A DNA stretch of 64,000 nucleotides from Lunatibacter salilacus. Lineage in GTDB: Bacteria; Bacteroidota; Bacteroidia; Cytophagales; Cyclobacteriaceae. Every line of letters begins with the position of its first letter. The stretch's first letter is position 1. The stretch is taken from positions 496,001 to 560,000 of the forward strand of contig NZ_VOLC01000001.1 in NCBI RefSeq assembly GCF_009797935.1, read 5' to 3'. This document shows, piece by piece, positions 4,201-21,165 of the stretch. The notes beneath the pieces are model-generated. The model was not told the origin of the DNA. It worked only from the letters and a program-made list of their open reading frames with translations, and made no database searches. Made by a program: the position numbers and the translations under genes.

Positions 4201-4306
4201 TCCTGAGACAACATTTGGCGCCAATATTAATTACTTGGGTATTGAAGGTACCAGCTTGCCACCTACTCAATCTATTGGTTTTAATTTAAATTTCAAATTG
4301 CACTAA
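1247..4306 (+). CDS. SusC/RagA-family TonB-linked outer-membrane transporter
   Basis: This is a TonB-dependent outer-membrane channel that, with its SusD partner, imports oligomeric nutrients. A signal peptide (about residues 1-23, ending VNA) precedes a carboxypeptidase-regulatory-like domain (about 26-103, with GTVVSEVDGTPIPGVSV). The plug domain follows at about 107-230, starting with the LGEVVVTALG motif shared by SusC proteins and including VINGVPMDN. The remaining ~790 residues form the beta barrel. The length (1019 aa) is normal. The SusD gene starts 2 bases after its stop, so the two are co-transcribed and probably translationally coupled. The substrate is not evident: no glycoside hydrolase is adjacent. 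Confidence 0.95.
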   Translation: MIKILSISCGLIFMLFMSIQVNAQTRILTGTVVSEVDGTPIPGVSVLDRTNQTGTATDMDGKYSISVNDNTILVFSFIGFSSQEFTVGNRSQLDVTLAEDASELGEVVVTALGLTKEKRKLGYAITTVSSDVMDKAREPNVANSLVGQVAGLVVKGTNGGPQGSANIVLRGLPSISGSGSPLFVINGVPMDNTQRGSAGEWGGSDNGDGIGNLSPDDIESMTVLKGQAASALYGARASNGVILVTTKGAKKGGDWSLSYNVNVMTDRPMDFNNFQNEYGQGVGGQRPQNEAEARTTGRFAWGERMGGTVIGYDGNQYPYTPSGENYLDFYRTGTNITNAVSVSKGLGEDGAFRLSISNLKSNSIVPSSGNDRLSINLNVDQNITDKLNVSAMINYIDQQSTNIPNLSDGPRNPNNFMFLAPNVAPSIFAPGYDESGNEIVFSDDIYVTNPYFMANKGINDRGRKRNISALSATYSFTPKVYAMLRVGNDVSNDDFFVVEPTGIAYSPDLKGNLNGRGLSTRSELNVDALFGADVSLNDDISLDALVGGTFRNNRYEEVGVSGSRFVIPGLYSPFNVEIFNRSYGFNEREVHSGFYSMGFEYKDFLTLTTTGRYDMYSTLPVDNNSIFSPSVTGAFLFDKFLNIPALDFGKLRASYAVTSGEPFAAYQTQFYYNSANSFNGVSAGSSPLGLPNLFLKPFTTDEIELGLDLVFFNNRLTFDVAYFSKTTNNEIMNASYSIATGFNSAVVATGSTNNTGLELMVSGTPIQTADFTWRTSLNFTNVKNEVLSTNLDNNPINLGQNRATLGNAVTAYVPGLPGPQIRAFDYEYDANGNIVVNDAGLPVRGELKNWGSVLPTHYGGWNNEFMYKGISFSFLIDYSFGNKVLSATEFYSHFRGLHQNTLVGREGGVTTNEITAPAQNYYQALAQNVTKTSVVDGDFIKLRQLTFGYTFPETWFNSVPVFKGLTASVVGRNLAILMRKAENIDPETTFGANINYLGIEGTSLPPTQSIGFNLNFKLH

Positions 4307-4308
4307 TT

Positions 4309-6144: not shown

Positions 6145-9100
6145 CTATGGGTTAAGTGCATAAACTTGTAGCCTATCATTATTCAGTGAATATATCACAT
6201 AGGTTTTTCCCCCGACCGTGAGGGGATGAATATCCCGAACATCTCCCCGGATTTTGATGCCCGAAGACAAAGAAGGTTTAACTGCAAAATTTCCTTTCCC
6301 ATCCCCCAAGAAAACAAAGCCATAATTTGCATCCTGTTGCCCACTGCTTACCCTGGCTTTTGTCAGGTTTCCCCCAGTGAGCAAATCAGGATGACCGTCC
6401 CCATTAACATCATATACCGCAGTCGCATATAAAGGAGAATACTGCGCTTCTTGGGGAAAGGGATTAAAGCTGAAGTTGGCATTTCCGTCGTTTTTAAAAT
6501 AACCGGATTTCAGTGTCTTTGTAGTTAGCGTATCCGCTCCCCCAATCTGCTCTGGAGTGAAAAACTGGTCAACAGGTGTCTTGGCAAAAGTTCGGTAATC
6601 CGAAAATTTCCCCCTAAATGTCGGAAGCTGACCCACCAATTCATCCCGGCTATACGCAAACGCGTTTGTATCTGCCATATAGTGGGTGAATATCGGATCT
6701 ATAGATCCATTCCCATCGAAATCTTTGGAAATAAGCCGCATGGGCTGGTCAGGTCTGGCCCTAAAGGTGTTGTTTTCACCCTGATTACCCATCACTAAAT
6801 CCAAATTATTATCCCCGTCCAAATCAGCTACAGTAATATGTTTCCACCAGCCTGATGATCCTTGGGGAAACGCATTTGCTTTTAACTCCAAAGACTTTCC
6901 CTCCTGATTCAGGTAGACCTGGGGAGCCATCCATTCTCCCGTGATTACTAAATCAACCCAATCATCTCCGTTTAGGTGCACGAGTTTGGCATCGGACAGT
7001 AACCCGGGATTTAAAAGAGTTGGACAAAAATTCTCGGTGATGTCAGCAAATGTAGCATCACCCAGATTCATCAGGAGATAGCTCCTCGCTGCGTTGGGAA
7101 AGCTACCCGGAATATATCTGCCACCTACGAAGAGGTCTGGAAATCCGTCATTATCCAAATCTGCCACCTGAACGACACTTCCACTAACCCGCATTTCGGG
7201 CAACGCTGTCTCATTTTTGGTGAAATTTCCCTTGCCATCATTCATATAGAGTCTATCCTGATAGCCTTCATCTCCCGCAGGAAAATCACTGCCACCACTT
7301 ACTACATAAAGGTCCAGGAAACCATTACCTGACACATCCACAAAAGCCGCATCAGTATCCACTTGTGATTTATCAGCTTCAAAGGCAGGCTGTGACATCA
7401 GTTGAAAAGTTCCATTGGACAGCTGCTGATAAAGGTGTCCAGGCTGGTCTTTGCCTCCACCTATATAAATATCTTCCAGCCCATCCCCGTTGATATCTCC
7501 CAATGTGATTTTTGGGCCAAGTGCAGACATGGTGTTTGGCATTAACCGATCTTGTATAAAGTCAAGAAAGGTGCTTTCCTGGTGCATAAAATCTATTCCC
7601 AAGGCATCAGGCACTGGATTAAATCTGTTCGATTGTGCGATTGGGTGTTGGTCGTATATCACTGATTCCCGTTGGTCCAACACCAGTAGCGTGTCCACTA
7701 CCGGATTGGATAGCTGCTGAAATCTCCCGTCCGGCCACCAGACTTCCAGGCTATCCAACTTAAAATGATCTCCGAGCCCAAAGACCAGCTCATGGTCCAC
7801 GGCTGATTGGTATCCACGCACGGGCATCAATTCTTGATGAAATATACGGTCACCTGCATAAAGCTGAACCCGAGCACCAATACCGGAAGTATTCATACCC
7901 TCCCCCTTAAATTTAACTTTGAGGAAATGACGGTCAAAAAGCCGCTCACTATTATTTCGGTAGATGCTAACTGGATCATTGGTATGGCAAACAATTAGAT
8001 CCAAATCCCCATCTCCATCCAAATCGGCATAAGCAGCTGCATTGGAAACGGTCATGCCTTTAATCCCCCATTCATTCGCCCTATTTGTAAATGTCAGGTC
8101 ACCGTTATTATGGTACAGGTAATTTTCCACATAGATGGGAGGCATCTTTTCAATCAGTTCAATCAATGCGTCTTCCTTTCCGGCACTCCCCGGCGTGGAG
8201 CGGATACGCTCGCTGACCATATAATTTAGAAAATCCATGTCCAGGTAATTGCGCGCATAACCGTTGGCTACAAAAAGGTCCTTCCAGCCGTCGTTGTCGA
8301 AATCCGCTGCAAGTACCGACCAACTCCAGTCTGTCTGGGAAATACCCGCATACTGTCCTATTTCACTGAAATAACCATTTCCCTGATTCAGGTGCAGCAT
8401 ATTGCGCATAGTCTGCGGATAAAATCCCTTAGCCAGTAATTCCCTGTATTTATCATAATTCTCAGGACCCAAGATTGCCTTTTGGTTGAAGGTATATTCA
8501 GGCATCATGTCCATGGTGATGATATCAGGAAGTCCATCATTATTCAGATCGGCAGCATCCGCACCCATGGAGAACAAGGAAACATGACCCATATATTGTT
8601 TTACCGATTCCTGAAAAGTACCATCCTGTTGATTGATATACAGGTAGTCTTCTTCATTATAATCATTACTGACATAGATATCCGGCCATCCGTCCTGATT
8701 TACGTCGGTGACGGTCACGGCTAGCCCAAAGCCCAAAACATTACCAATGATGCCGCTTTCATCGGAAACGTCCACAAATTTCCCGTTATCATTGCGATAT
8801 AGCTTGTCCCCTAAAAACTCTCCTTTCCGTTGCTTAAAATTGCCGTCGATTCGGCTAAAACCGGCATATTCTTGGGTAGAATGGTTTAACAAAAACATAT
8901 CTAAGTCGCCATCTCTATCGTAGTCAAAAAAGGTAGCCTGGGTGGAATACCCCGGATCATCCAGTCCAAATTCCTTTGCTTTATCGGTAAAGGTTAGGTC
9001 ACCGTTATTGATTAACAGGACATTTCTCCGTCGTTCGGGGTCGTTGGCTGCGGATCTGCAGATATAGATGTCCAATAAGCCGTCACCATTTACATCGGCC

Positions 9101-9462
9101 ATGGTCACGCCCGTATTCCAAAGCCCCGCAGCAGCAGCTCCAGCGGACTCGGTGATGTCTTCAAATTCTAAATTACCTTTATTCAAATACAGCTTACTTG
9201 CCATCATATTACCCGTAAAATACAGGTCAGGAAGACCGTCGTTGTTGATATCCCCTACAGCGACTCCACCCCCCTGATAGAAATAACCGTATGTCAATAC
9301 GTTAAACTCTTCCGACTCACGAACCAGGTTCCTGAAATTAACACCCGTACGTTTGGAGGACATCTCAGTAAATAAGGCATTGGGATCTTCCTTTTGGCAG
9401 GCTGTCAGACTTGTGAGAATTAAAAAAAGAAAGAGAAGACGCATTGTATATTGGGAAATCAT
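6145..9462 (-). CDS. FG-GAP/VCBS repeat lipoprotein with ASPIC/UnbV domain
   Basis: This is a large (1105 aa) secreted beta-propeller-type protein of the CRTAC1/ASPIC family. The signal peptide ends LTAC, so it is probably a lipoprotein; the ATG at 9444 is an equally good start (MRLLFLF). I count about fourteen calcium-binding loops of the D-x-N/D-x-D-G-x-x-D type, for example DINNDGLPD, DVNGDGLLD, DFDNDGWKD and DINGDGLED. They occur in two blocks flanking an ASPIC/UnbV domain (roughly residues 510-580, with GARVQLYAG and ELVFGLGDH). Function of the family is unproven; surface ligand binding is usual. It lies downstream of the second SusC/SusD pair but beyond that pair's terminator, so read-through or its own promoter is needed. 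Confidence 0.88.
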   Translation of the reverse strand: MISQYTMRLLFLFLILTSLTACQKEDPNALFTEMSSKRTGVNFRNLVRESEEFNVLTYGYFYQGGGVAVGDINNDGLPDLYFTGNMMASKLYLNKGNLEFEDITESAGAAAAGLWNTGVTMADVNGDGLLDIYICRSAANDPERRRNVLLINNGDLTFTDKAKEFGLDDPGYSTQATFFDYDRDGDLDMFLLNHSTQEYAGFSRIDGNFKQRKGEFLGDKLYRNDNGKFVDVSDESGIIGNVLGFGLAVTVTDVNQDGWPDIYVSNDYNEEDYLYINQQDGTFQESVKQYMGHVSLFSMGADAADLNNDGLPDIITMDMMPEYTFNQKAILGPENYDKYRELLAKGFYPQTMRNMLHLNQGNGYFSEIGQYAGISQTDWSWSVLAADFDNDGWKDLFVANGYARNYLDMDFLNYMVSERIRSTPGSAGKEDALIELIEKMPPIYVENYLYHNNGDLTFTNRANEWGIKGMTVSNAAAYADLDGDGDLDLIVCHTNDPVSIYRNNSERLFDRHFLKVKFKGEGMNTSGIGARVQLYAGDRIFHQELMPVRGYQSAVDHELVFGLGDHFKLDSLEVWWPDGRFQQLSNPVVDTLLVLDQRESVIYDQHPIAQSNRFNPVPDALGIDFMHQESTFLDFIQDRLMPNTMSALGPKITLGDINGDGLEDIYIGGGKDQPGHLYQQLSNGTFQLMSQPAFEADKSQVDTDAAFVDVSGNGFLDLYVVSGGSDFPAGDEGYQDRLYMNDGKGNFTKNETALPEMRVSGSVVQVADLDNDGFPDLFVGGRYIPGSFPNAARSYLLMNLGDATFADITENFCPTLLNPGLLSDAKLVHLNGDDWVDLVITGEWMAPQVYLNQEGKSLELKANAFPQGSSGWWKHITVADLDGDNNLDLVMGNQGENNTFRARPDQPMRLISKDFDGNGSIDPIFTHYMADTNAFAYSRDELVGQLPTFRGKFSDYRTFAKTPVDQFFTPEQIGGADTLTTKTLKSGYFKNDGNANFSFNPFPQEAQYSPLYATAVYDVNGDGHPDLLTGGNLTKARVSSGQQDANYGFVFLGDGKGNFAVKPSLSSGIKIRGDVRDIHPLTVGGKTYVIYSLNNDRLQVYALNP

Positions 9463-9546: not shown

Positions 9547-11166
9547 TTAAGGCTTGGCATCCCACCAGAGTTTGGTGGAGTTCTTATTACCACCTCTTGA
9601 AGTAAGTTCTGGAAATTCCTCTGCTGCTTCGACAGCTGCTCTGTTATTGTTGTATTCTCCTTCTACAAAAATGAGTCTAGGCATAACTACATCACGAGGA
9701 ACATCAACGTTATCGGAAGCAACCCGAGGATAAAACTTCGGGTATCTGTTTCTTCGTAATTCAGCCCAGGCCTCCCAACCATCAGGATAGAGAGCGAGCC
9801 ATTTTTGGGTAGCAATTTGCTCCAACTGCTTCTCTTTGGTACCAGTAGTCAAAAAAGCTACAGGTATATCTGACGAGGCAGGCAAATTCCATTCGGTTCT
9901 CGAATAAGTTACAGGTGCGGGAGTATTTGTACTCGAAATATAGGCCTGCACTTGTTCGGCAGAAGCACCAATCCTTTCTTCTGTCATTGACATTTCGATT
10001 CCTTTTTCATAAAGATCTTTGGCAGTACCACCCATTGCCCATCCTTCCAAAGCCCCTTCGGCTCTGTTAAAATATACCTCAGCAGCTGGTAGCATTCTCA
10101 ATGGAGGGCCAGCTGGAGACCCTCCCCTTCCAAGATTCAACCACCTTTCACCCACATCGGAAAAGCCTCTACTCAAAGCTCCTTGATCAAGATCTGCCCT
10201 GGGAAGACCATTTCTAAGACCCCTATAGGGCACACTTGTATCACCGGTTCTAAAATCATCCGTTGTCCGGAAATAAACTTCAAGCCGAGGGTCTTCATAT
10301 CCCTTCAATAAACTCTCCATTAAAGCACTCATACGGAATTCATTCCAATCCGTTATCGTCCATAGTGGATGCCGTGAATTGATAGTCGTATTAATAGCCG
10401 CACTCTCGTCGTTGGTCAACATCACTCCATCAGCAACAGCCTTTTCAGCTTCGGATTTCGCTAAAGCTGGCTCCACATACTTTACGCGAAGTGCAAGTCT
10501 CAACCGAAGAGAGTTTGCATAAGTCAACCATTTATCCACGCTTCCGCTAAATACTTGATCATGAGCTGTGAAAGCAGATCCACCCCTATTTGCCTTAAGT
10601 ACAGCTACAGCCGCATCCAGTTCTTGAAAGAAGTTTTTGTATATGGATTCTTGGGTATCATAAGGGACAACGGTTTCTCCATTTCCAAAATTTGAATAGA
10701 TTACCGGCCCATAATAATCCGTGTACCTGTGATAGGCCTGAACCTTCAATACTTTTGCAAAGGCATTTTCCAACGGTAAATTATTTGTCGCAGTAAAATC
10801 TTCAACAAACTTAATTATCGGTGCCGCCTGTCCGTAGAAATAATTCCAACTACCGTTTGTCCAGCCACCCACTTGAATATGCCTATCTGAATCGAAATTG
10901 GTGGCTGTATTTGCGAAATACTGCGCATAAATGTCAGCAAACAGATTTTGACCTGTCTGATAGTTTCCTGCTCCACCACCTGGTGCACCAGTCATCGCCC
11001 GCATCTGGCCATTGGCAAATGCCTGACCCAAAAGACCAATATCCAGGTTATCCGCAAGGATCACATCAGGCTTCGTGTTGAGCTCTTCAAAATTCTCTGT
11101 ACAACCTCCAAAGACAAAGGCAGCGATAGAAAATCCAATAATATTTTTAAATATTTTCATAGTCAT
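9547..11166 (-). CDS. SusD/RagB-family nutrient-binding lipoprotein (second pair)
   Basis: This surface-exposed lipoprotein is the partner of the SusC protein encoded upstream. The lipoprotein signal ends VFGGC and leads into TENFEELNTKPDV, the same SusD-like_2 N-terminal pattern as the first SusD. Length is 539 aa. Two start codons 6 bases apart are possible (11166 and 11160); MKIFKN from 11160 gives the more typical signal peptide. The SusC gene ends 10 bases upstream, so the two form an operon, and a terminator follows the stop. The C-terminal segment contains the WWDAKP end common in this group. Confidence 0.93.
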   Translation of the reverse strand: MTMKIFKNIIGFSIAAFVFGGCTENFEELNTKPDVILADNLDIGLLGQAFANGQMRAMTGAPGGGAGNYQTGQNLFADIYAQYFANTATNFDSDRHIQVGGWTNGSWNYFYGQAAPIIKFVEDFTATNNLPLENAFAKVLKVQAYHRYTDYYGPVIYSNFGNGETVVPYDTQESIYKNFFQELDAAVAVLKANRGGSAFTAHDQVFSGSVDKWLTYANSLRLRLALRVKYVEPALAKSEAEKAVADGVMLTNDESAAINTTINSRHPLWTITDWNEFRMSALMESLLKGYEDPRLEVYFRTTDDFRTGDTSVPYRGLRNGLPRADLDQGALSRGFSDVGERWLNLGRGGSPAGPPLRMLPAAEVYFNRAEGALEGWAMGGTAKDLYEKGIEMSMTEERIGASAEQVQAYISSTNTPAPVTYSRTEWNLPASSDIPVAFLTTGTKEKQLEQIATQKWLALYPDGWEAWAELRRNRYPKFYPRVASDNVDVPRDVVMPRLIFVEGEYNNNRAAVEAAEEFPELTSRGGNKNSTKLWWDAKP

Positions 11167-11175
11167 TACAATTTT

Positions 11176-14100
11176 TTAAAATCCAAGATTAAGATTAAAA
11201 CCGAAGGATCTTGCTGTTGGTGGAGCAAAAGACTCTCTGCCTCCTGAATTGGAGCCTGTACCAACTGTCACGTCTGGATCAAGGTTTCCTGCTTCGTTAA
11301 GGAAGAAAAACAAATTCCTGGCAACGAAGTTGATACTTACGCTGTTGATTGGAAAACCTTCCAGCTTTTTGGCAGGAATAGTATATCCTACAACAGCTTC
11401 TCTCATTCGTATGTTAGTCGCAGAAACAGTAAACACTTCACCAATAGGTGCATTTCTACCACCCATATTTACCCAGAATTGTTCCGCTGTTATTTGAATA
11501 TCATTAGGTTCACCTGTTTCCAAAACTGCAGTTTCATGTTCCATAAAGTTTTGACCGAAGATCAATCCCCCTTCCCGTCCTGGCAAGGTCTCTTCTGTCA
11601 ACCCATCAGCATAAATGATGGCATTGGTAAAGGAAGTGATGCTTCCTCCCTGACGGAAATCGATGGTAAAGTTCGCACGGAAGTTTTTGTAGTTAAATGA
11701 GTTTTGAATACCTCCCAACCAAATTGGGTTGTAATTCGCAACACGGACAGTAAATCCAGGAGTCGTTCTTGGAATACCGTTTTCGCCAATGATTACCCGT
11801 CCTTGATCGTCCCTGAGGTAACCCCTGGAATAAACCTCTCCAAATTGGGACCCTTCTTCAATTCGAAAGCGGGTTAAGAAAGAAGAGCCGATTTCTACAC
11901 TTGGGCGCTCGTCATTAATTTCTTTAACTAAAGAAATATTTCTTGCAAAATTCGAAGTGATCGTCCATTCAAAATCAGCTTTACGTACTGGAGTCAATGT
12001 AATTACCGCTTCGATACCTTCATTCTGCACATTTCCCCCGTTTGTGAAAAACTGGGAAGCTCCAGAACCTACAGGAAGGCCTACTGTAAATAGCTGGTTA
12101 AATGAATTTGTTTTATAGTAAGTGAAATCCAATCCCACCTTATTGTCAACAAATCTCATATCAGCACCAAGTTCTATGGATTGGGTAGTTTCTGGAAGAA
12201 GATTAGCATTTGGAAGAGTTGTACTTAAGGATAAATATCCTGCCCGTCCTCCAGCTGCAAAGGCCGCTTGACGCTGCAATTGGAAAGGACTTGTGTCGTT
12301 ACCCACTTCGGCAAAAGAACCCCTAAGTTTGGCAAAAGTAAACCAAGTTGGCATTTCAACCAAGTCGGAGATTACAGCGTTCAATCCTACAGATGGATAG
12401 AAGAACGACCAATTGTCTCTTGGTAGGGTAGAACTCCAATCATTTCTGGCTGTAATATCCAAGAATACAGCATTTTTCCAGGCAAACTGTCCAAATGCAT
12501 ATAATGAATTTACATCCCTTGGGCTACCAATATTATAACTAGAAACTACCTGCTGCGTATTACCCAGTGCAAAGAAATTAGGAACTACCAACTGATTGCC
12601 TGTATTAGAACTTAACCCAGTATTTCGGTCTTTCCTTGCGTTACCACCAACGTTAACATTAAAAAACCAATCTTGACTAAGTGTCTTTTCGTAGGATATT
12701 AAAAAGTCAGTGTTAATCTCCATTGCTTCTGATGTACCAACTGAAAAACGTCCATTTTGGGCAATAATGTAAGAATCATTGTATTCCGTGTTGGTGCTGC
12801 CGCCAAATGAACGGTCCATCGCTGCTCTTGCCAGGATACTTAACCCTTCAGCTAACTCATAGCTTAAAGAGGTGAATGCAATGATCCGATCAGAAGTATT
12901 TGTACGAAGATTTCGATTGTTTGACCAATATGGGTTGGCACCACCGTTTGATCCTGGATTAAAATAATTCTGTCTTAGTAGTCCAGCGGAATTCACATAT
13001 TCATACTGTGATATATCCTCTGTCCGGATATTCCTTGGTAATCTATAAATATGCCTCGCTGGATTGGCATAATTTTCATCCTGAGGTAATGATTGGGAAA
13101 TGTCCTGTCGGATATAATTTATCTTAGAATCCAACGACAAATTATCCGCTAATTTATTAGTTAAACGAAGGTTGATACTATGTCGCTTTAAATCGTTATC
13201 CGGCACAACACCAGCAGCATCCGCATAGGTATAGGAGAAATAGGTTTGACTTCTTTCTGTACCACCACTCACGGATAATGTTGTAGCCATATTATGTCCG
13301 GTTTGGAAGAAATCCAGAATATTGTTAGGCTGGGGAGAATATGGATAAGTCGTTCCCTCTTTTCCAGGGGCCATGGACCATTGGGCTACTTGTTGACCAT
13401 CCATTCGGGGACCCCAAGAAAACTCAGATGCCGGAGAATAAACTCCCCCGCTTCCCTGACCGTATACATCTTGGTAGTTAGTCAACAGAATGGGCTGATC
13501 AAACATATAAGAAGTATTCAAGCTTACATTAAATCCCTGCTTACCTCTTTTCGTATTCACTACAATCGCTCCATTGTTTGCTCGGCTTCCGTACAAAGCC
13601 GCAGCATTTGGACCTTTCAACACGTTGATACTTTCAATATCATCCGGGTTCAGGTTCTCGATTCCACGTGCCGGAACACCATCAACTATATACAGGGGTT
13701 GGGAATCTCCACTAATGGACCTATTACCACGCAATACTACACGTGTTGCAGAGCCAACACCGGAACCTCCTCTATTTATGGATAAGCCGGCGACTTTACC
13801 GGAAAGAGAATTCATCACGTTCAATTCACGGGCTTCAGTCAACTCACGGGTACCAACATCCTGTACCGTGTAAGTCAATGATTTCTTTTCCCTTTCCAAT
13901 CCAAATGCAGTAACGACGACTTCAGATAAGGCAGATTCTTCTGCATTTAAAGCAACGTTAAGTACGTTTGAATTACCGATTACTAATTCCTGTCGTCCAT
14001 ATCCCAGATAGGAGAAAACCAACGTGGTTGCGGAGGATGGAACAGAGATACTGTACTGACCATCAATGTCCGTAATTGTACCCGTATTTGTTCCTTTTAC

Positions 14101-14232
14101 CAATACGCTTACCCCAGGAAGTGGGGCATCAGCGTCCGAATCAGTCACTGTACCAGTGACTGTCCTCTCCTGTGCAAAGGCAAAAACGCCAGTAAAAAGC
14201 AACAGAAGAAAAGCAAGTAGACTTTTTTTCAT
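11176..14232 (-). CDS. SusC/RagA-family TonB-linked outer-membrane transporter (second pair)
   Basis: This is a TonB-dependent outer-membrane channel. The signal peptide MKKSLLAFLLLLFTG... ends AFAQ. It is followed by a carboxypeptidase-regulatory-like domain (RTVTGTVTDSDADAPLPGV), the SEVVVTAFG motif, the plug domain (with VVLRGNRSISG and YIVDGVP) and a beta barrel ending NLNLGF with a terminal Phe. Length is 1018 aa, nearly the same as the first SusC, but the sequences differ throughout, so they are not a recent duplication. It heads an operon with the following SusD, pointing towards the first pair so that the two loci converge. Substrate unknown. Confidence 0.95.
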   Translation of the reverse strand: MKKSLLAFLLLLFTGVFAFAQERTVTGTVTDSDADAPLPGVSVLVKGTNTGTITDIDGQYSISVPSSATTLVFSYLGYGRQELVIGNSNVLNVALNAEESALSEVVVTAFGLEREKKSLTYTVQDVGTRELTEARELNVMNSLSGKVAGLSINRGGSGVGSATRVVLRGNRSISGDSQPLYIVDGVPARGIENLNPDDIESINVLKGPNAAALYGSRANNGAIVVNTKRGKQGFNVSLNTSYMFDQPILLTNYQDVYGQGSGGVYSPASEFSWGPRMDGQQVAQWSMAPGKEGTTYPYSPQPNNILDFFQTGHNMATTLSVSGGTERSQTYFSYTYADAAGVVPDNDLKRHSINLRLTNKLADNLSLDSKINYIRQDISQSLPQDENYANPARHIYRLPRNIRTEDISQYEYVNSAGLLRQNYFNPGSNGGANPYWSNNRNLRTNTSDRIIAFTSLSYELAEGLSILARAAMDRSFGGSTNTEYNDSYIIAQNGRFSVGTSEAMEINTDFLISYEKTLSQDWFFNVNVGGNARKDRNTGLSSNTGNQLVVPNFFALGNTQQVVSSYNIGSPRDVNSLYAFGQFAWKNAVFLDITARNDWSSTLPRDNWSFFYPSVGLNAVISDLVEMPTWFTFAKLRGSFAEVGNDTSPFQLQRQAAFAAGGRAGYLSLSTTLPNANLLPETTQSIELGADMRFVDNKVGLDFTYYKTNSFNQLFTVGLPVGSGASQFFTNGGNVQNEGIEAVITLTPVRKADFEWTITSNFARNISLVKEINDERPSVEIGSSFLTRFRIEEGSQFGEVYSRGYLRDDQGRVIIGENGIPRTTPGFTVRVANYNPIWLGGIQNSFNYKNFRANFTIDFRQGGSITSFTNAIIYADGLTEETLPGREGGLIFGQNFMEHETAVLETGEPNDIQITAEQFWVNMGGRNAPIGEVFTVSATNIRMREAVVGYTIPAKKLEGFPINSVSINFVARNLFFFLNEAGNLDPDVTVGTGSNSGGRESFAPPTARSFGFNLNLGF

Positions 14233-14727: not shown

Positions 14728-15996
14728 TCAAAGTAATTCCTTCAATGCCAAAAATCCCGTATAGGAGATAATAATTGAAAAAACAAAAGCAGCCGAAAGT
14801 CCGATGTTCAGGAGTAACCCAGCCTTGTGTTCTCCCATCAAATCCCTCCTATTAATAAGGTATAAAATACATCCAATCACGACTGGTAAAATAAAAACAG
14901 CAGCCACCTGGGTCATAATCTGAGCCAAAATGGGGTTGGCTCCCAAAATTGGCACAGTGAGTCCAAACACACAGGCTATTCCGGTAAGGATTTTAAACCG
15001 CTTCGAGGTAGTATCCAAAACCCCTTCTTTATAATCGGCAATTAATAAAGGTGCAACCATCAATATTGGAAAAATGGAAGAAAGCCCTGCACTCAGTGCC
15101 CCTGTCATAAAGAGTGCCACGGCAAACTTCCCTGCAATGGGTTCCAAGGTATATACCATATCCAGCACCCGCTCTATAGTTTTGCCCTCCACAAAAAGAG
15201 ATCCTGCTGCCGCTGCCATAATCGAAAGGTTGATAACAAACATTAAAACGGCCGAGAAAAGCGCATCGTTGGATTGTTCTTTTGTATGGGCCTTCGTCCA
15301 ACCCTTTCCTCTCAACAACAAAGGTCTAACGACAAATGTCGGGGCCGCCATGGTTGTACCCACAAATGCTGCCACCAAAAGTTTTCCACCCGGTACAGCT
15401 GGTATTGTCGGCTTCAAACCACCTACTATATCCATAGGGTCCGGCAAAACCACAAACATGGAAATAATGAAGGAGATGCCCATCAGGGTGACAAATACGA
15501 TCAAAACTTTTTCAAAAAAGGAATATTGGCCCACCCACAACAACGCATACATGGTGACTATCAGGGTAATTGCGATGCCCAAAACAGCCCAATAACTTTC
15601 CGAAGGAAGGGAAGGGACAAAAAGTACAGCTACCTCATAAAGGGCACTGGCACTTAGTCCAAGTATGCCCGTAAGCGAATTCCACTGGGCGATTACAATC
15701 CCTGTCACTACAATAATGGCGAGGGTCTTTCCTCCTCTAATCTTCGTTTTAAAACTATATATGGAGGTTTGTCCTGTAACTATGGCGTACCTCCCATAAG
15801 CTTCCATCAGGACCCATGCGAAAAGACAGCTTAAAAACAATACCCAAAGCAGCTGCATTCCAAATTGGCTCCCAGCCTTAGCCATTGATGTCACACTACC
15901 TGTACCAACTGTATAGCCAATACAAAATATTCCGGGGCCTATGCTGAGCATCCATGCCCATATGCTTTGCAAAAATGAATTCTTCTGTTTGTCCAT
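14728..15996 (-). CDS. Non-canonical Nramp-family transporter lacking metal-site motifs
   Basis: This inner-membrane protein (422 aa, about 11 helices) has the Nramp/LeuT-type layout, with an IGPGIFCIGY first helix and a sixth helix beginning FVGTT. Canonical Nramp proteins coordinate metal with DPGN in helix 1 and MPHN/MPHH in helix 6. Here those positions read VGTG (30-33) and AAPT (217-220), so every side-chain ligand is missing. It is therefore unlikely to move manganese or iron. Because the fold belongs to the APC superfamily, transport of an organic molecule is plausible. It is divergently arranged with the amidohydrolase/PLP/RidA genes starting at 16270, suggesting uptake of their product or substrate; that link is inference from position. 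Confidence 0.8.
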   Translation of the reverse strand: MDKQKNSFLQSIWAWMLSIGPGIFCIGYTVGTGSVTSMAKAGSQFGMQLLWVLFLSCLFAWVLMEAYGRYAIVTGQTSIYSFKTKIRGGKTLAIIVVTGIVIAQWNSLTGILGLSASALYEVAVLFVPSLPSESYWAVLGIAITLIVTMYALLWVGQYSFFEKVLIVFVTLMGISFIISMFVVLPDPMDIVGGLKPTIPAVPGGKLLVAAFVGTTMAAPTFVVRPLLLRGKGWTKAHTKEQSNDALFSAVLMFVINLSIMAAAAGSLFVEGKTIERVLDMVYTLEPIAGKFAVALFMTGALSAGLSSIFPILMVAPLLIADYKEGVLDTTSKRFKILTGIACVFGLTVPILGANPILAQIMTQVAAVFILPVVIGCILYLINRRDLMGEHKAGLLLNIGLSAAFVFSIIISYTGFLALKELL

Positions 15997-16269
15997 GATA
16001 AGAAAAGCCTCCTTTATGGCTATGGGTTTTGGTTTATCGGTAATTGATTCAGTGAATTATTGGCTGGCAGACAACAATTAAACCCTATCGTAACTCTTAA
16101 TCCTAAACTTATAAAATAATGCTTTGCAAAAATAAATTTTTATGTAATATTTAATAAATAATTCCTTCACCCTATCCATCCCATTTATGAAATAAATTGA
16201 GCGAGTATTGTACCTATCCAAAGGGTATGATCTATCAAATAACGAGAAATCTTCAACTACAAATTCCCC

Positions 16270-17568
16270 ATGCGAAAAGCCAGCCTCCATTCTTTTAAAA
16301 AAGGTGTCATCCGACTCACTTTAATTGGTTTAGTTATTCTCTTTGGCAGTCTTCCCTCATTTCTTTATGCCCAAGAAATTGATATTCTACTTAAAGGTGG
16401 ACATGTCATTGATCCCAAAAATGGCATCGATGCCGTCATGGACATTGCCATATCCAACAGGAAAATACATCAGGTCGCAGCCAATATTCCTAGTAACCAA
16501 GCCAAGCAAATCATTGATGTCAGCGGATTGTACGTTACCCCTGGATTGATAGACATGCATGTACATGTCTTCCACGGAACCGAACCCCAGTCCTATATAG
16601 CTGACGGACATACGAGCTTACCCCCGGATGGATTTACCTTTCGTTCGGGTGTCACTACAGTAGTGGATGCCGGATCCGCCGGATGGCGAAATTTTAGGTT
16701 GTTTAAGCAGCAGACTATTGACCGCTCTCAAACACGAATTTTGGCCTTCCTAAATATTGTAGGGACCGGGATGTATGGCCGCTTTGAGGAACAGGATGTG
16801 TCAGACATGAACCCCACTATGACGGCCAACATGATTACCAGACTATTTCCTGAACTATTGGTAGGTATAAAATCAGCTCACTATTGGGGAGGATTTACCC
16901 AAGTTGATCTTGCTGTGGAAGCGGGCAATCTGGCCAATGTTCCCGTAATGGTAGATTTTGGAGAACATCAGCCCCCAAATTCCATCGAGGCCCTGTTTAT
17001 GAAGCACCTGCGACCGGGAGATATATTCACCCACACCTACTCCTATGGACCTGCAAACCGGGAAACAGTGGTAAATGAAGACCTACAGGTAAACCCCTTT
17101 ATTTTCGAAGCCCAAAAACGGGGAATTATTTTTGATGTTGGCCATGGTGGTGGTGCATTCTCTTTTAGACAAGCTATACCTTCTCTGCAGCAGGGTTTTC
17201 TGCCGGATGTAATCAGTTCTGACTTGCACAAAGACAGCATGAATGGTGCCTTTAAAGACATGACCAACCTGCTTTCTAAATTTATGAATATGGGCATGTC
17301 ACTTTCTGACGTGATTCTGCGGTCTACTTGGAAACCTGCACAGGTTATTTCACGCGAAGATTTGGGGCATTTGAGCGTGGGTACGGAAGCGGATATTGCA
17401 GTTTTCAGCTTGAGAGAGGGGAATTTCGGATTTCAGGATATCCGACGCACAAAGATTGAAGGGACTCAAAAGCTGGAAGCCGAACTAACTATCAGGGCAG
17501 GGAGAATCATGTGGGACCTGAACGGCATCAGTGCCCCCCATTGGGAAACAGAGATTAGCAAAAAATGA
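16270..17568 (+). CDS. Exported amidohydrolase/deacetylase-family metallohydrolase (copy 1)
   Basis: This is a TIM-barrel amidohydrolase of the group containing EF_0837 and Atu3266-type enzymes, which remove acyl groups from amino-acid- or hydroxy-acid-like substrates. A signal peptide (about 1-35, ending LYAQE) puts it in the periplasm. Metal-site residues are intact: HxH in PGLIDMHVH (His97, His99), candidate carboxylated Lys201 in VGIKSAH, His233 in FGEHQP, His255 in FTHTYS and catalytic Asp318 in SSDLH. The C-terminus returns to the small beta-sandwich (LSVGTEADIAVF). The next gene overlaps its stop (ATGA), so translation may be coupled. The exact substrate cannot be told; cytosolic relatives are often encoded beside SelA-like enzymes, as here. 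Confidence 0.88.
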   Translation: MRKASLHSFKKGVIRLTLIGLVILFGSLPSFLYAQEIDILLKGGHVIDPKNGIDAVMDIAISNRKIHQVAANIPSNQAKQIIDVSGLYVTPGLIDMHVHVFHGTEPQSYIADGHTSLPPDGFTFRSGVTTVVDAGSAGWRNFRLFKQQTIDRSQTRILAFLNIVGTGMYGRFEEQDVSDMNPTMTANMITRLFPELLVGIKSAHYWGGFTQVDLAVEAGNLANVPVMVDFGEHQPPNSIEALFMKHLRPGDIFTHTYSYGPANRETVVNEDLQVNPFIFEAQKRGIIFDVGHGGGAFSFRQAIPSLQQGFLPDVISSDLHKDSMNGAFKDMTNLLSKFMNMGMSLSDVILRSTWKPAQVISREDLGHLSVGTEADIAVFSLREGNFGFQDIRRTKIEGTQKLEAELTIRAGRIMWDLNGISAPHWETEISKK

Positions 17569-18824
17569 ATAAATCGGAGGGGCAGTTCCATATGGTGCAT
17601 CGTTTTCTATTATTCCTGATTTTAGGATTAGTGTTGGGAACGCCATTAATAGCTCAGGATCATGACATCATCCTTGTCAACGGACATCTAATAGATGCTA
17701 AAAATGGAATAAACCAACCCATGGACATTGCCATACGGGATGGAAAAGTCTCTAAAATAGCCGAAAAAATCCTTCATAAAGAGGGGAAGCGTGTAATTGA
17801 TGTTCAGGGATTAATCATAAGCCCCGGACTGATAGATCCCCACACCCATGTTTATGTGGGTGAAAAGCCCAGAACCTTTGCCGGTGGAAGTTCCAGTGTA
17901 TCGCCGGACGACTTCACATTTCGGTCAGGAGTCACCACAGTAGTAGACGCTGGAACCTCGGGGTGGAGGAATTTTGAAGACTTCAAAAAGACGGTAATCG
18001 ATGTTTCCCAAACCCGGATTTTGGCATTTCTTAATATTGCCGGGGGAGGCATGCAAGGTAATCCAGCCCAAGAGGATATCACGGATATGAATCCGGAAAT
18101 CACTGCGCAGACTATAGCTAAACACCCGCAGCATTTGGTAGGCGTAAAAATAGGCCACTATGAGGGAAAGGATTGGACTCCTTTTGACCGTGCCTTGAAT
18201 GCTGGTAGCTTGGCTAACGTACCTCTTTTGGTAGAGTGCCATTTACCGGAATATTCCCTCGCAGACCAGTTAAAACGAATGCGTCCGGGGGATATATTAA
18301 GCCATACCTATGAAAATATCCGCGACAGGGAGCCCATTATTGATAGCCAAGGAAAACTACTGCCAGAAGTCAAAGCAGCCAAAGATCGGGGTATTCTCTT
18401 CGATGTGAGCCATGGAGGAGCGGGGTTTTGGTTTAATCAAGCTATCCCTGCCATTCAGCAAGGTTTGACGCCAGATACTTTTGGTACAGATTTGCATCGG
18501 TTCAGCATGAACTCCGGCATGAAGAATTTTTCCAATGTTTTGTCTAAATTTATGGCCATGGGAATGTCCCTTGAGGCAGTACTCACCCAAGCCTCCTGGA
18601 AGACGGCACAAGCCCTAAAACGGGAAGATCTGGGACACCTCAGCGTGGGAACTGAAGCAGATATTGCTATATTTAGAATACGTAAAGGAGAATTCGGGTT
18701 TGTAGACTCGGCAGGACAACATATACAAGGAAATCAACTTTTGGAGGCTGAATTAACCATCAGGGCAGGACGAATCGTCTATGACTTAAATGGGCTGTCA
18801 GCTTCCCCATATAACAACCACTAA
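17565..18824 (+). CDS. Exported amidohydrolase/deacetylase-family metallohydrolase (copy 2)
   Basis: This is a tandem paralogue of the preceding gene, with the same fold and motifs: HxH at His93/His95 (LIDPHTH), Lys195 (VGVKIGH), His226 (VECHLP), His247 (LSHTYE) and Asp309 (GTDLH). Both copies therefore look catalytically competent. The residues around these positions differ between the copies (FGEHQP against VECHLP), suggesting different substrate preferences. Two starts are possible: 17565, overlapping the upstream stop, or 17592, which gives a cleaner signal peptide (MVHRFLLFLILG...LIAQ) and has a GGAGGGG purine tract about 10 bases upstream, unusual in a phylum that rarely uses Shine-Dalgarno sequences. 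The PLP gene begins 5 bases after its stop. Confidence 0.87.
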   Translation: MNKSEGQFHMVHRFLLFLILGLVLGTPLIAQDHDIILVNGHLIDAKNGINQPMDIAIRDGKVSKIAEKILHKEGKRVIDVQGLIISPGLIDPHTHVYVGEKPRTFAGGSSSVSPDDFTFRSGVTTVVDAGTSGWRNFEDFKKTVIDVSQTRILAFLNIAGGGMQGNPAQEDITDMNPEITAQTIAKHPQHLVGVKIGHYEGKDWTPFDRALNAGSLANVPLLVECHLPEYSLADQLKRMRPGDILSHTYENIRDREPIIDSQGKLLPEVKAAKDRGILFDVSHGGAGFWFNQAIPAIQQGLTPDTFGTDLHRFSMNSGMKNFSNVLSKFMAMGMSLEAVLTQASWKTAQALKREDLGHLSVGTEADIAIFRIRKGEFGFVDSAGQHIQGNQLLEAELTIRAGRIVYDLNGLSASPYNNH

Positions 18825-18829
18825 ATAAA

Positions 18830-20443
18830 ATGGATAGAAGACATGTAATTAAGAATTTGGCCATGTTGCCCATAGGTGGCAGCTTCCTTTCTATTGGAAA
18901 TGCCGCTCAGGCCAAAAGTGTAGGTCCCATCTCTTTGGATGAAGACATTTACGGATCTATTGGGGTAGACACTATTATCAACTGCCGGGGTACCTTCACC
19001 ATTATAGGCGGGTCTCGTGAACGACCGGAAGTGTTGACAGCGATGAAAGCCGCTGCTGGTAATTTTATCCAATATGATGAAATGGCACATGGTATCGGAC
19101 AGCGTCTGGCGGATATCACGAAAGCAGAATGGGGAATCATCACAGCAGGGTGTGCCGCTGCGATGAAACACGCCACCGCCGCCTGTGTCAGTGGGGGTAA
19201 TCCCGAGATTTTGCTACGAATTCCAGATCTATCCCTAGTGCATAAAAATGAGGTGATCATACCCCGCTATTCCCGAAATGTCTACGATGCTTCTATACGA
19301 AACATCGGGGTGACCATTATGGAAGTAAGTACACCTGAGGAATTGGAAGCTGCCATTTCATCAAAAACAGCCATGATTTATATCACAACAGGCAGGCAGT
19401 CGGCAACTGGACAGCCTCTCTCGCTGGAGGTGATCGCAGGAATTGCCAAACCTAAAAATATTCCGGTTTTGGTAGATGCGGCGGCAGAAGACCTTACGAT
19501 TCCAAATGTACACCTGGAAAAAGGAGCAACCATGGTCGCTTATTCCGGAGGCAAGGCCATCTGTGGTCCTCAGTGCGCAGGTATTCTGTTGGGTCAAAAA
19601 GACATCCTCATGTCTGCTTGGCAAGCAAGCTCCCCCCACCATGGACCGGGAAGAGACAACAAAGTGGGAAAAGAAGAAATGATGGGCATGTTGGCCGCTG
19701 TGGAAGCTTGGGTTACCAGAGACCATGAACAGGAGTGGAAAAATTGGGAAAATTGGTTAGAACAAATTTCAGCAAAGGTTACAAAAGTAAAAGGTGTGAC
19801 TGCCAATGTCCAGCTGCCAGCAGCAGATGAATTAAACAACCGTGCCCCAACCCTACAGGTGATGTGGGACCCAAACTCCCTACATATTACCGGACCGGAA
19901 ATGGCTGAATACTTGGGCAGAAATAAACCCCGTATTGCTGTTGGAGGTCGTGACAACGGGGAAAACAATACGCTAATCACGATAACTCCCAGTCAGATGG
20001 TTGCCGGCGAAGTACCCATCGTAGCTGACCGCTTGGTGGAGGTACTAAGTAAAAAGAGACAACCTAAGAAACCAATGGCTGCGCCGTCTGGAAGCTTGGC
20101 AGGTCGTTGGTTGGTGGAAATCCAGTTTTTCAGCAGCACATCTACCCATAAATGGTATTTGGAACAGGATGAAAACTGGTTGATGGGGAGGCATGAAAGT
20201 GACTATACAAGTCAGGATATCCTAGGTACGATTGAAGGCAATGAGGTAAAACTTCACAGCACATATCGGGAACCCGGTAAGCAGGTGCAGTACATGTTTG
20301 GCGGAAAACTTCAAGGTGATACCCTTACGGGAAATATTCATTTGGGAGAATATCAAACTGCCACCTTTACGGCAAAGCGGGTAACGTACAGTCCCGATAG
20401 AAAACCCATATTAATACCCGACGGTCCACCTCTAGCGACTTAA
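18830..20443 (+). CDS. Tat-signal SelA-like PLP enzyme with C-terminal beta-rich domain
   Basis: This is a fold-type I PLP enzyme of the SelA/DgaE-like group (relatives include D-glucosaminate-6-phosphate ammonia-lyase-type proteins). The N-terminus carries a twin-arginine motif (RRHVIKN, residues 3-9), a hydrophobic stretch and an AQA cleavage site near 28, so it should be exported folded with its cofactor. Asp216 (VLVDAAAE) should contact the PLP ring nitrogen and Lys242 (SGGK) should form the Schiff base. Residues about 421-520 form an added domain rich in predicted beta strands (LAGRWLVEIQF, TLTGNIHLGEY) absent from the catalytic fold; I do not recognise it. The operon position after two amidohydrolases suggests elimination of ammonia or water from the deacylated product. 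The reaction is inferred. Confidence 0.85.
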   Translation: MDRRHVIKNLAMLPIGGSFLSIGNAAQAKSVGPISLDEDIYGSIGVDTIINCRGTFTIIGGSRERPEVLTAMKAAAGNFIQYDEMAHGIGQRLADITKAEWGIITAGCAAAMKHATAACVSGGNPEILLRIPDLSLVHKNEVIIPRYSRNVYDASIRNIGVTIMEVSTPEELEAAISSKTAMIYITTGRQSATGQPLSLEVIAGIAKPKNIPVLVDAAAEDLTIPNVHLEKGATMVAYSGGKAICGPQCAGILLGQKDILMSAWQASSPHHGPGRDNKVGKEEMMGMLAAVEAWVTRDHEQEWKNWENWLEQISAKVTKVKGVTANVQLPAADELNNRAPTLQVMWDPNSLHITGPEMAEYLGRNKPRIAVGGRDNGENNTLITITPSQMVAGEVPIVADRLVEVLSKKRQPKKPMAAPSGSLAGRWLVEIQFFSSTSTHKWYLEQDENWLMGRHESDYTSQDILGTIEGNEVKLHSTYREPGKQVQYMFGGKLQGDTLTGNIHLGEYQTATFTAKRVTYSPDRKPILIPDGPPLAT

Positions 20444-20462
20444 TTTAAAAAACGAAGTAAAA

Positions 20463-20499
20463 GGCAAGCTCCTCTTGTTTTAGAGATGAGCTATTTGCC
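20463..20499 (+). other. Stable hairpin after the PLP-enzyme gene
   Basis: An imperfect stem pairs GGCAA, GCTC and CTCT (20463-20475) with AGAG, GAGC and TTGCC (20482-20499), interrupted by AT and TA bulges on the 3' side, around a TGTTTT loop. It lies just after the stop at 20443. No T tract follows, so it is not a textbook intrinsic terminator. It could protect the 3' end of the operon mRNA or be a processing site before the RidA gene. Confidence 0.5.
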
Positions 20500-20592
20500 G
20501 GGGACTTATCTTAAGCCAAAAACTTAAAAATAATTTCCATCTTTGCTGCCATTAATTATACACATTCAACCACTAATCTAAACGTTAGATCC

Positions 20593-21165
20593 ATGAAAAA
20601 ACTCCTGTTTTTAGGAAGCTTGTCACTGCTATTGATGCTGAATTGCACCAGTAAAAAAACCGAGACTGCCGAAGCCCAAGTCACCACTTCCACCAATGAC
20701 GGTATCGATGCCGAAAAACGCATCGAAGAATTGGGAATCAAATTGGTGCTTCCCAATCCTCCCACTGCCAATTATTTAAAGGCGAAGCGGGTGGGTAATC
20801 TGATATATATGGCAGGTCACGGTCCCGACAAGCCGGATGGAACTCAAGTAATCGGCCGACTAGGGGAAGACTTGGAACTTGAGGCTGGATATGAGGCCGC
20901 ACGTTTTACAGGCATTTCACTTCTCTCTTCCCTAAAGGCTGAAATTGGTGACTTAAACAAAGTAAAAAACATCATTCAAGCACAGGGAATGGTAAACGCT
21001 CATCCTTCCTTCAAACAGCACTCCCAGGTAATCAATGGATTCTCCGATCTGATGGTAGAGGTGTTTGGTGAAAAAGGAAAGCATGCGCGAGCAGCGATTG
21101 GAATGAGTTCTTTACCGAACAATATAGCCGTAGAAATAGATATGGTGGTAGAAGTGGAGGATTGA
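20593..21165 (+). CDS. RidA/YjgF-family protein with lipoprotein signal
   Basis: RidA-family proteins hydrolyse reactive imines/enamines such as 2-aminoacrylate released by PLP enzymes. The core domain spans about residues 45-190. The active-site Arg (Arg105 in the E. coli protein) is present as Arg166 in HARAAIGMSSLP, followed by the NNIAVEID strand, so imine deaminase activity is plausible. Unlike the usual cytosolic RidA (about 130 aa), this protein begins with a hydrophobic signal and a Cys18 (LMLNC), so it is probably a periplasm-facing lipoprotein; the Asn at -1 makes the lipobox imperfect. It lies 149 bases after the PLP gene on the same strand and is followed by a terminator. The placement suggests that it processes the PLP enzyme's product. 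Confidence 0.88.
   Translation: MKKLLFLGSLSLLLMLNCTSKKTETAEAQVTTSTNDGIDAEKRIEELGIKLVLPNPPTANYLKAKRVGNLIYMAGHGPDKPDGTQVIGRLGEDLELEAGYEAARFTGISLLSSLKAEIGDLNKVKNIIQAQGMVNAHPSFKQHSQVINGFSDLMVEVFGEKGKHARAAIGMSSLPNNIAVEIDMVVEVED

Follow-up and report, generated by a model that had tools for sequence, protein, structure and literature searches.

The locus raises the question whether a deacylase, a PLP enzyme and a Rid protein can act together outside the cytoplasm. In the window, that is the whole stretch of 64,000 nucleotides from Lunatibacter salilacus which we analyzed, four consecutive plus-strand genes had been proposed to encode two amidohydrolases, a SelA-like PLP enzyme and a RidA-family protein, next to a divergent gene for an Nramp-fold transporter without metal ligands. 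The open reading frames lie where the original prediction placed them, and Pfam and NCBIfam models assign them to these families. AH1 (16270–17568, +) is a predicted Sec-exported amidohydrolase/deacetylase of the PRK09237 type and overlaps by 4 bases with AH2 (17565–18824, +), a second predicted Sec-exported amidohydrolase. After a gap of 5 bases follows the PLP gene (18830–20443, +). Profiles, alignment and fold match give its enzyme part (18830–20056) the SelA/DgaE/Cap15 fold, with a twin-arginine N-terminus and the PLP lysine K242; the C-terminal tail (20057–20443) is an eight-stranded beta-barrel resembling avidin and fatty-acid-binding proteins. The Rid lipoprotein (20593–21165, +; PF14588) starts 149 bases further on, and the Nramp-fold gene (14728–15996) is on the minus strand.

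Several surrounding genes had been overlooked in the original prediction. Downstream of the Nramp-fold gene and on the same strand we find a SusC-type outer-membrane transporter (11176–14232, −), which adjoins the block also in loci L036–L038, its SusD-type lipoprotein partner (9547–11166, −) and an FG-GAP/VCBS-repeat lipoprotein (6145–9462, −) recurring beside SusCD in related loci including L212. At the other end of the minus-strand genes the window begins with the 3′ part of an SBF symporter (1–789, +), the rest of which lies outside. This symporter belongs to a set just left of the window made up of a second Rid with an RR leader, a gluconolactonase and two SBF symporters. The set probably belongs to the metabolism of the block as its second part; in genome G019 the FG-GAP gene of the block has a Rid-SBF-SBF set directly next to it. 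Neither a lactonase nor an aldolase gene is present within the window block itself, which we counted against a pathway of the kind proposed below.

All four products had been said to carry export signals, and by eye we recognize two Sec signals on the amidohydrolases, the RR signal DRRHVIK on the PLP protein and the lipobox LMLNC on the Rid protein. Signals were judged by eye and with a crude classifier, which assigns export to 75 of 145 and to 206 of 471 background open reading frames (12 and 50 of them as Tat). Two sets of PLP homologues were compared. Of the 26 matches above 200 bits, S1 (L036–L057) contains 24, two of which are paralogues from the genome of the window itself; the window and G016:C6 make up the other two, and each has an amidohydrolase and a Rid gene. 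S2 was built from the best 80 of 567 relatives, which favors close ones, and includes several short contigs (such as L122, 3.3 kb). As the original prediction requires, most homologues have signals: these are present in 24/24 proteins of S1 and in 92 of the 102 N-termini of S2 (83 called exported and 9 by eye). All 23 aligned homologues, window included, have the two arginines and the PLP lysine.

An amidohydrolase gene lies within 5 kb of 19 of the 24 PLP genes in S1 and a Rid gene of 16, whereas about 0.9% would be expected by chance to have a Rid neighbor in an 11-kb span; chance association was rejected on this count. The background is a count of 156 PF01042 matches across 39 genomes including the window's own, or about 0.8 per Mb (about 195 Mb, summed from rounded sizes). 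In 35 of 102 loci the PLP gene has both partners at a distance of no more than 5 kb, and these cases span three phyla. Both numbers count L037 and L061, which are the same locus, twice, and the 35 include L111 with broken or fused frames. In these 35 loci 42/43 PLP enzymes, 46/49 amidohydrolases and 37/38 Rid proteins are called exported and the remainder are signal-like by eye. In L207, L208 and L218 all three genes are leaderless by eye. Since leaderless trios also exist, the compartments agree within a set. Three actinomycetes have the same exported-type trio (L126, L135, L206). A search of the actinomycete class matched 5 of 394 genomes at 1e-50, the starting genome included; the other four contain the exported trio L206, the leaderless trios L207 and L208, and a leaderless PLP enzyme with Rid (L209). 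The genome of L207 has a second PLP gene (L210) without either partner. In L217 a Rid gene is 1.2 kb away from the PLP homologue, and the haloarchaeal loci L215 and L222 have no annotated amidohydrolase of the PRK09237 type or Rid. The long-form homologues of Rhizobium gallicum (L219) and Sinorhizobium numidicum (L220) were set aside as misfits in phosphonate or biosynthetic regions. Ten of 225 plasmid records were inspected; L221 and L223 are unannotated. Thus of the exported pathway that had been proposed, the signals and the recurrence of the trio stand, but the exact block including the Nramp-fold gene was found only in 8 Cyclobacteriaceae-type loci, the window among them.

The best NCBIfam models for the PLP protein are those of DgaE, TIGR01437 and NF047797, both below their cut-offs (161.7 against 385.3 and 144.4 against 600 bits). 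The predicted structure is closest to Cap15 (8t7j; Z 39.1, rmsd 2.1 over 351), followed by DgaE (7lc0; Z 37.1, rmsd 2.8 over 357) and, after a gap, SelA (24.8). Among 129 family rows, window included, the PLP-binding lysine is always kept, and the equivalent of DgaE His163 is never found. The window has a gap there, in a loop one residue shorter and in an alignment that is uncertain at 27% identity; 11 rows have some histidine elsewhere in this loop. The DgaE phosphate arginines R301, R332 and R346 are kept in 9, 2 and 0 of the 129 rows and are T, G and S in the window. At the position of the carboxylate arginine of DgaE, Arg226, the window protein has Gln, and a basic residue (R or K) occurs in only 85/129 rows; this counts against the reading given below. 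The loss of His163 tracks neither export nor Rid, because all seven aligned leaderless homologues without a neighboring Rid also lack it; it was therefore dropped as an export marker. The barrel tail is missing from short paralogues and gave nothing convincing in Pfam or PDB sequences, its fold being that of a small barrel. Existing annotation of this widespread family goes no further than class V aminotransferase or SelA-like.

AH1 and AH2, which are 54% identical, exceed the cut-off of the PRK09237 model NF006689 (446.9 and 409.3 against 371 bits) and fall below that of TIGR03583 (EF_0837; 227.3 and 224.5 against 432.15 bits). Both hold HxH, Lys, the beta6 His and the beta8 Asp, which in 99 aligned rows are retained in 99 and 98 (HxH), in 92 as Lys and 7 as Arg, in 99 and in 99. 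The metal-ligand histidine of beta5 is replaced in 98/99 rows (Asp 69, Glu 29, His 1), by Asp in AH1 and by Glu in AH2; the leaderless amidohydrolases of L207, L208 and L218 retain it.

Rid proteins are usually viewed as cytoplasmic guards of PLP enzymes. The window Rid exceeds the PF14588 cut-off (62.3 against 35 bits), and the arginine of imine hydrolysis is conserved in 41/41 rows including the window. Two Rid subfamilies fill the same place, PF14588 with Sec or lipoprotein signals and PF01042 with RR signals.

The Nramp-like protein belongs to the Pfam Nramp family (193.1 against 29.8 bits). As had been noticed, DPGN and Met, which we take to be the metal ligands of Nramp transporters, are replaced in the alignment by GTGS (in helix 1) and Ala; GTGS is found in all 17 homologues from other loci as well. 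Among the 20 regions compared, 17 with Nramp-like relatives and three with RraA, all 17 of the former lack an adjoining PLP or Rid gene; one has a weak amidohydrolase match (23 bits) and several adjoin sugar-acid or sugar genes. Because these relatives form a larger family without such neighbors, we abandoned the idea that the transporter is a dedicated part of the pathway.

To our preferred reading we give a probability of about 60%: outside the cytoplasm, the enzymes of the block would break down an N-acyl-2-amino-3-hydroxy acid, and the most likely substrate of this kind is an amino sugar acid, for example N-acetylglucosaminate. Substrate, reaction, order and transport are inferred as follows. 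SusC/SusD would carry the substrate across the outer membrane and AH1/AH2 would strip the acyl group from the N-acyl-2-amino-aldonate. The PLP enzyme would leave via Tat folded and with cofactor bound. How PLP reaches a Tat substrate had been posed as an open question, which it is not, because PvdN and PtaA of pyoverdine maturation leave folded with PLP bound, as described in PMC6206403. The enzyme would then eliminate water or ammonia like DgaE, from a nonphosphorylated substrate, and, having no counterpart of the histidine with which DgaE protonates the enamine, might release a reactive enamine/imine; the H163A mutant of DgaE is reported to release free enamine, and its authors point to RidA (PMC9529869). 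The exported Rid would hydrolyze this intermediate to a 2-keto-3-deoxy acid and ammonia. The product may be taken up by an inner-membrane carrier, here the Nramp-like protein and elsewhere SBF symporters, and in some species a secreted RraA-like aldolase would cleave it before uptake.

Recurrent neighbors in 105 loci are GSDH-cytochrome c, a sugar dehydrogenase-cytochrome (36), gluconolactonase (12), CBM9 (10) and an RraA-like aldolase (10). In Granulicella the exported-type trio is joined by an exported RraA and a lactonase, the operons L069/L071 consist of GSDH-cytochrome c, gluconolactonase, amidohydrolase, PLP enzyme, Rid, Sec-RraA and SBF, and in Cyclobacterium (L063/L068) the GSDH-cytochrome c gene lies inside a window-type block. 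It is conceivable, and we suggest it tentatively, that a full oxidative amino-sugar route runs outside the cytoplasm, analogous to the nonphosphorylative Entner–Doudoroff pathway. GSDH-cytochrome c would oxidize the N-acyl amino sugar and a secreted lactonase would open the lactone. Deacylase, Tat-PLP lyase and exported Rid would then yield the 2-keto-3-deoxy acid. A secreted RraA-like aldolase would cleave this into an aldehyde and pyruvate, with uptake of the organic acids by SBF or Nramp-fold carriers; the toxic enamine would be held away from cytoplasmic PLP enzymes. Chitin oxidation by LPMO family AA10 was rejected as a source of substrate: LPMO_10 has no match in this genome, though two GH20 are present.

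The same exported chemistry could serve small N-acyl-D-amino acids of the D-serine or D-threonine type instead of sugar acids; these would come from peptides, peptidoglycan or soil organic matter. In Rhizobium (L214) a leaderless PLP and Rid pair adjoins an ABC importer in a stretch with no such amidohydrolase, and Martelella has a leaderless trio beside an ABC importer whose two permease and two ATPase genes are the layout of peptide importers. The amidohydrolase model names a deacetylase in general terms only, and OngC is reported to deaminate D-serine and D-threonine too (PMC9537276). The neighbors listed above, however, are of the sugar type and Martelella itself holds DHDPS-family and acid-sugar-kinase genes, so we consider these substrates unlikely. 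It is still less likely that the PLP enzyme is an O2-dependent oxidase or monooxygenase giving an oxidative imine or amide, with Rid hydrolyzing the imine. Cap15 is the closest fold, just above DgaE, and glycyluridine is also a 3-hydroxy-2-amino acid. The latter, an amino acid on a nucleoside, is the substrate of Cap15 (PMC6384614). NCBIfam nevertheless places the DgaE-type models first, and lactonase, aldolase and symporter neighbors better match a keto-acid product.

Two further explanations question the pathway as such. The four proteins might be independently secreted enzymes of a polysaccharide-type locus, the Rid having another activity: 8/24 PLP genes in S1 have no Rid nearby and five of the 24 have neither partner, which we counted against the pathway, and in S2 (best 80 of 567 relatives) only 31 of 104 PLP copies have a Rid within 5 kb, leaving 73 without. 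The recurrence of the trio in three phyla with matching compartments and the constant Rid arginine make this very improbable. Hardly any weight goes to the idea that the RR N-terminus fails to direct export and leaves the PLP enzyme in the cytoplasm. The h-region of the window signal is weak by eye and 10/102 N-termini of S2 (best 80 of 567 relatives) are leaderless on visual inspection; seven of these ten belong to a single clade, 55–59% identical to the window protein. This clade, however, is nested among exported rows in a quick tree with long branches and has no amidohydrolase or Rid gene within 5 kb; the two arginines are invariant while the surrounding leader varies, TatC is present in the genome and the partners have export signals.

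If the extracytoplasmic pathway is correct, a conserved exported PLP–Rid pair for which two Rid subfamilies were recruited would mean that enamine chemistry is managed outside the cytoplasm too, and would offer a clean case of a Rid protein dedicated to a single PLP enzyme. The sparsely annotated PLP family would gain a function, a role would be suggested for the essential RidA of the ong pathway, and a nonmetal role would be indicated for the large Nramp-like family.

PvdN and PtaA differ from the block in that they tailor siderophores, and the available part of PMC6206403 mentions no Rid partner. Rid genes clustering with PLP enzymes have been described (PMC4433059) and share with the block the position beside a PLP enzyme and the catalytic arginine; the main text of that paper does not mention periplasm, signal peptide, secreted, glucosaminate, seryl-tRNA or amidohydrolase. 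Among the literature matches listed no title has an exported Rid–PLP pair, and none was found joining RidA, periplasm, Tat signal and pyridoxal, both being weak evidence of absence. Cap15, a PLP-dependent monooxygenase-decarboxylase of capuramycin biosynthesis (8t7j; PMC6384614), is an antibiotic enzyme using O2 and, unlike the window family, has a histidine at the 163 position in the alignment. DgaE shares the fold and the PLP lysine but acts on a phosphorylated substrate (PMC9529869), whereas the window family is without His163 and nearly all phosphate arginines and adds the RR leader and the barrel tail. The leaderless sets of actinomycetes and Martelella (L207, L208, L218) consist of the same three families as the block.

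The block is best read as following the known cytoplasmic logic of the ong cluster, which here would be carried out by different protein families and outside the cytoplasm. The ong cluster of Pseudoalteromonas prydzensis ACAM 620, for N-acetylglucosaminate, encodes a deacetylase, a PLP deaminase giving 2-keto-3-deoxygluconate and ammonia, and a RidA-family protein that is needed for growth in a role described as unexplained (PMC9537276). Alike would be the set of deacylase-type, PLP and Rid proteins, TonB-dependent import across the outer membrane and deamination without prior phosphorylation. In ong, however, OngB is most similar to D-aminoacylases, and OngC belongs to the PLP enzymes of fold type III. 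Both are predicted to be cytoplasmic, where the catabolism is placed too, and an SSS importer and a KDG kinase take part (PMC9537276). By this description the Ong proteins are set apart from the SelA/DgaE-like PLP enzyme and the PRK09237-like deacylases of the block, where all have export-type N-termini.

The original prediction had proposed an exported pathway of amidohydrolases, a PLP enzyme and a RidA-family protein (Rid) with an Nramp-like transporter, and a check of the sequence confirmed its five open reading frames at the predicted positions. The amidohydrolases AH1 (16270-17568) and AH2 (17565-18824) are paralogues with 54% identity, both scoring over the cut-off of the PRK09237 amidohydrolase/deacetylase model, and Rid matches the Pfam profile PF14588. 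The best profile matches of the PLP protein are DgaE-type models with scores under their cut-offs. The Nramp-like gene (14728-15996), encoding an Nramp fold with GTGS in place of DPGN, is followed on the same strand by a SusC/SusD pair and an FG-GAP gene.

The complete set of SusC, the Nramp-like gene, AH1, AH2, PLP and Rid recurs at seven other loci (L036, L038, L061 = L037, L062, L063, L068 and L125), and a GSDH-cytochrome c gene lies inside the block in both Cyclobacterium loci, L063 and L068. Among 59 genomes, the own one included, the long PLP form was found in five, and short paralogues with 31-38% identity occur in these five and in others. Many of the short paralogues lie in other clusters with an exported amidohydrolase and an exported Rid, the latter being either a PF14588 protein with a Sec signal or a PF01042 protein with its own twin-arginine leader. 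Thus, judged by their leaders, two Rid subfamilies are exported beside the same PLP family.

All 24 PLP genes from 22 loci of relatives and the own genome (L036-L057) were called exported; within 5 kb we found an amidohydrolase for 19, Rid for 16, both for 16 and neither for five. In a collection of 84,980 species genomes there were 567 relatives, and the best 80 of these contain 104 PLP copies, of which 83 were called exported, 19 were not and two are cut. In this set of the best 80 an amidohydrolase lies within 5 kb of 56 exported, four non-exported and two cut copies, Rid within 5 kb of 28, two and one, and both of 26, one and one, respectively; inspection by eye of the 19 copies not called revealed a twin-arginine leader in nine and none in ten. 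The signal classifier is crude, calling 75/145 and 206/471 unrelated open reading frames exported (12 and 50 of them as Tat), and the arginine pair which is invariant in 23/23 aligned PLP rows is therefore the better evidence for export. At 35 of 102 loci amidohydrolase and Rid are both near the PLP gene, and there 42/43 PLP, 46/49 amidohydrolase and 37/38 Rid N-termini were called exported, the five remaining ones being signal-like by eye. The recurrence of the trio and its export-type N-termini leave the proposed exported pathway well supported by comparison. Tandem arrays of three long PLP genes with several AH1/AH2 genes and CBM9 are present in Daejeonella and a Sphingobacterium MAG (L083, L108, L110); no Rid was found within 5 kb of these PLP arrays.

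Exported trios are also found, albeit rarely, in actinomycetes, where 5/394 genomes have a close PLP match; the order is PLP-Rid-AH in Streptomyces niveus (L126), Nonomuraea cypriaca (L135) and a third actinomycete (L206). In Granulicella tundricola the genes for RraA, short PLP, Rid, long PLP, amidohydrolase and lactonase are consecutive and all six have leaders by eye. Two actinomycetes (L207, L208) and a Martelella plasmid (L218), in which the trio is surrounded by ABC importer genes, have by eye leaderless PLP, amidohydrolase and Rid proteins. As the trios are either all exported or all leaderless, the predicted compartment agrees within each of these sets. Seven leaderless long-form PLP homologues from Chloroflexota, Latescibacterota and Gemmatimonadota form one clade amid exported ones in the tree; no amidohydrolase or Rid was found within 5 kb of their genes, one of which lies on a contig of just 3.3 kb. 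It seems that this clade lost its leader along with the partner genes. On rhizobial plasmids (L219, L220) leaderless-looking long-form homologues lie amid phosphonate or biosynthetic genes, so the PLP family has other uses.

The predicted structure of the PLP protein (mean pLDDT 77.9) is closest to the O2-using capuramycin enzyme Cap15 (8t7j; Z 39.1, rmsd 2.1 over 351) and to DgaE (7lc0; Z 37.1, rmsd 2.8 over 357), with SelA far below (Z 24.8). The C-terminal tail (20057-20443) is predicted to fold into an eight-stranded barrel (pLDDT 87.0) whose model resembles avidin and fatty-acid-binding proteins; a convincing relative was found neither in Pfam nor among PDB sequences. The tail is also structurally close to a quinohemoprotein amine dehydrogenase domain, and in the long form it is kept across phyla with invariant W, G and H residues (n=30 rows).

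The PLP lysine (217 in the DgaE paper PMC9529869, 213 by chain index) is present in 129/129 family rows. The DgaE proton donor His163 is missing in all 129, with a gap in 121 and a histidine elsewhere in the loop in 11, and the phosphate-cluster arginines R301, R332 and R346 are retained in only 9, 2 and 0 rows; at the carboxylate Arg226 position 85/129 have R or K. According to that paper, DgaE H163A is still active (kcat 20 vs 27 per second), yet free enamine is released, and RidA is cited there as the type of enzyme by which such enamines are cleared. With His163 and nearly all the phosphate arginines lost, the PLP family looks suited to substrates that are not phosphorylated and to releasing an enamine, and Rid would then be useful, above all beyond the reach of the housekeeping RidA. 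Against this argument, however, His163 is also missing from leaderless homologues without a neighbouring Rid.

The catalytic arginine of Rid is kept in 41/41 aligned sequences. The 99 aligned, mostly exported amidohydrolases retain HxH, the lysine (Arg in seven), the beta6 histidine and the beta8 aspartate. The beta5 metal-ligand histidine is replaced by Asp in 69/99 and by Glu in 29/99, the sole histidine being that of L138; in the window AH1 has Asp and its paired paralogue AH2 Glu. This histidine is kept in the leaderless amidohydrolases of L207, L208 and L218 and also in the solved structures 2ogj and 8je0.

DPGN and a methionine are the metal ligands of metal Nramps. In the alignment the Nramp-like protein has GTGS for DPGN and Ala for Met. 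Nramp-fold proteins with GTGS form a large Bacteroidota family (14728-15996; L176-L189, L193-L195). Ten neighbours of relatives elsewhere were examined and include UxuA, enolase-superfamily, PfkB and xylose-isomerase-like genes; these sugar-acid and sugar neighbours, seen beside several family members, suggest that the family probably carries organic solutes, not metals.

Longer operons at L069 (Sinomicrobium) and L071 have the order GSDH-cytochrome c, SMP-30-type gluconolactonase, amidohydrolase, PLP, Rid, RraA-like aldolase, DUF4440 and SBF symporter. Among 105 clustered stretches (L036-L140, reaching up to ~10 kb each side) 36 have GSDH-cytochrome c, 12 gluconolactonase and 10 each CBM9, RraA and SBF. 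All nine RraA-like proteins with an N-terminus in the best 80 of 567 relatives were called Sec-exported. RraA-like aldolases with Sec signals were seen at L069 (12380-13363), L049, L075, L079, L083 and in the window's genome (L190-L192), which has four RraA-like copies, three near SusC/SusD-type genes. At the left edge (window 1-5910 and the adjoining L059) lie gluconolactonase, a Rid that has a twin-arginine leader and no PLP gene of its own, two SBF symporters and then SusC/SusD. About 20 kb, including a second SusC/SusD pair, separates the gluconolactonase, Rid and SBF genes left of the window from the PLP gene. A Rid-SBF-SBF set directly adjoins the FG-GAP gene of the block in one compared genome (G019, L212) and occurs together with gluconolactonase in another (G001, L213). 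Possibly the left-hand set provides the other half of the metabolism encoded by the block.

While families, export-type N-termini, co-occurrence and residues were computed, we infer every step of the following mechanism. The substrate would pass the outer membrane via SusCD, the amidohydrolase would remove an acyl group, and elimination by the PLP enzyme would give an enamine. Its hydrolysis by Rid would yield ammonia and a 2-keto-3-deoxy acid, and either the Nramp-like protein or an SBF symporter would import the product. The original prediction saw a puzzle in how PLP reaches a Tat substrate. This is no paradox, since PvdN and PtaA, as described in PMC6206403, exit via Tat with PLP already bound.

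A sugar acid as substrate is a reasoned guess based on the kinship to DgaE, the sugar-type neighbours and the ong pathway of Pseudoalteromonas prydzensis. According to PMC9537276, ong degrades N-acetylglucosaminate with a deacetylase and a PLP deaminase, and its RidA is required for growth, with no role assigned there. The logic of deacetylase, PLP deaminase and RidA is thus similar, whereas the ong pathway is placed in the cytoplasm and the one proposed here would be exported. As the ong proteins are described there as D-aminoacylase-like and fold type III, the exported trio would be an independent solution.
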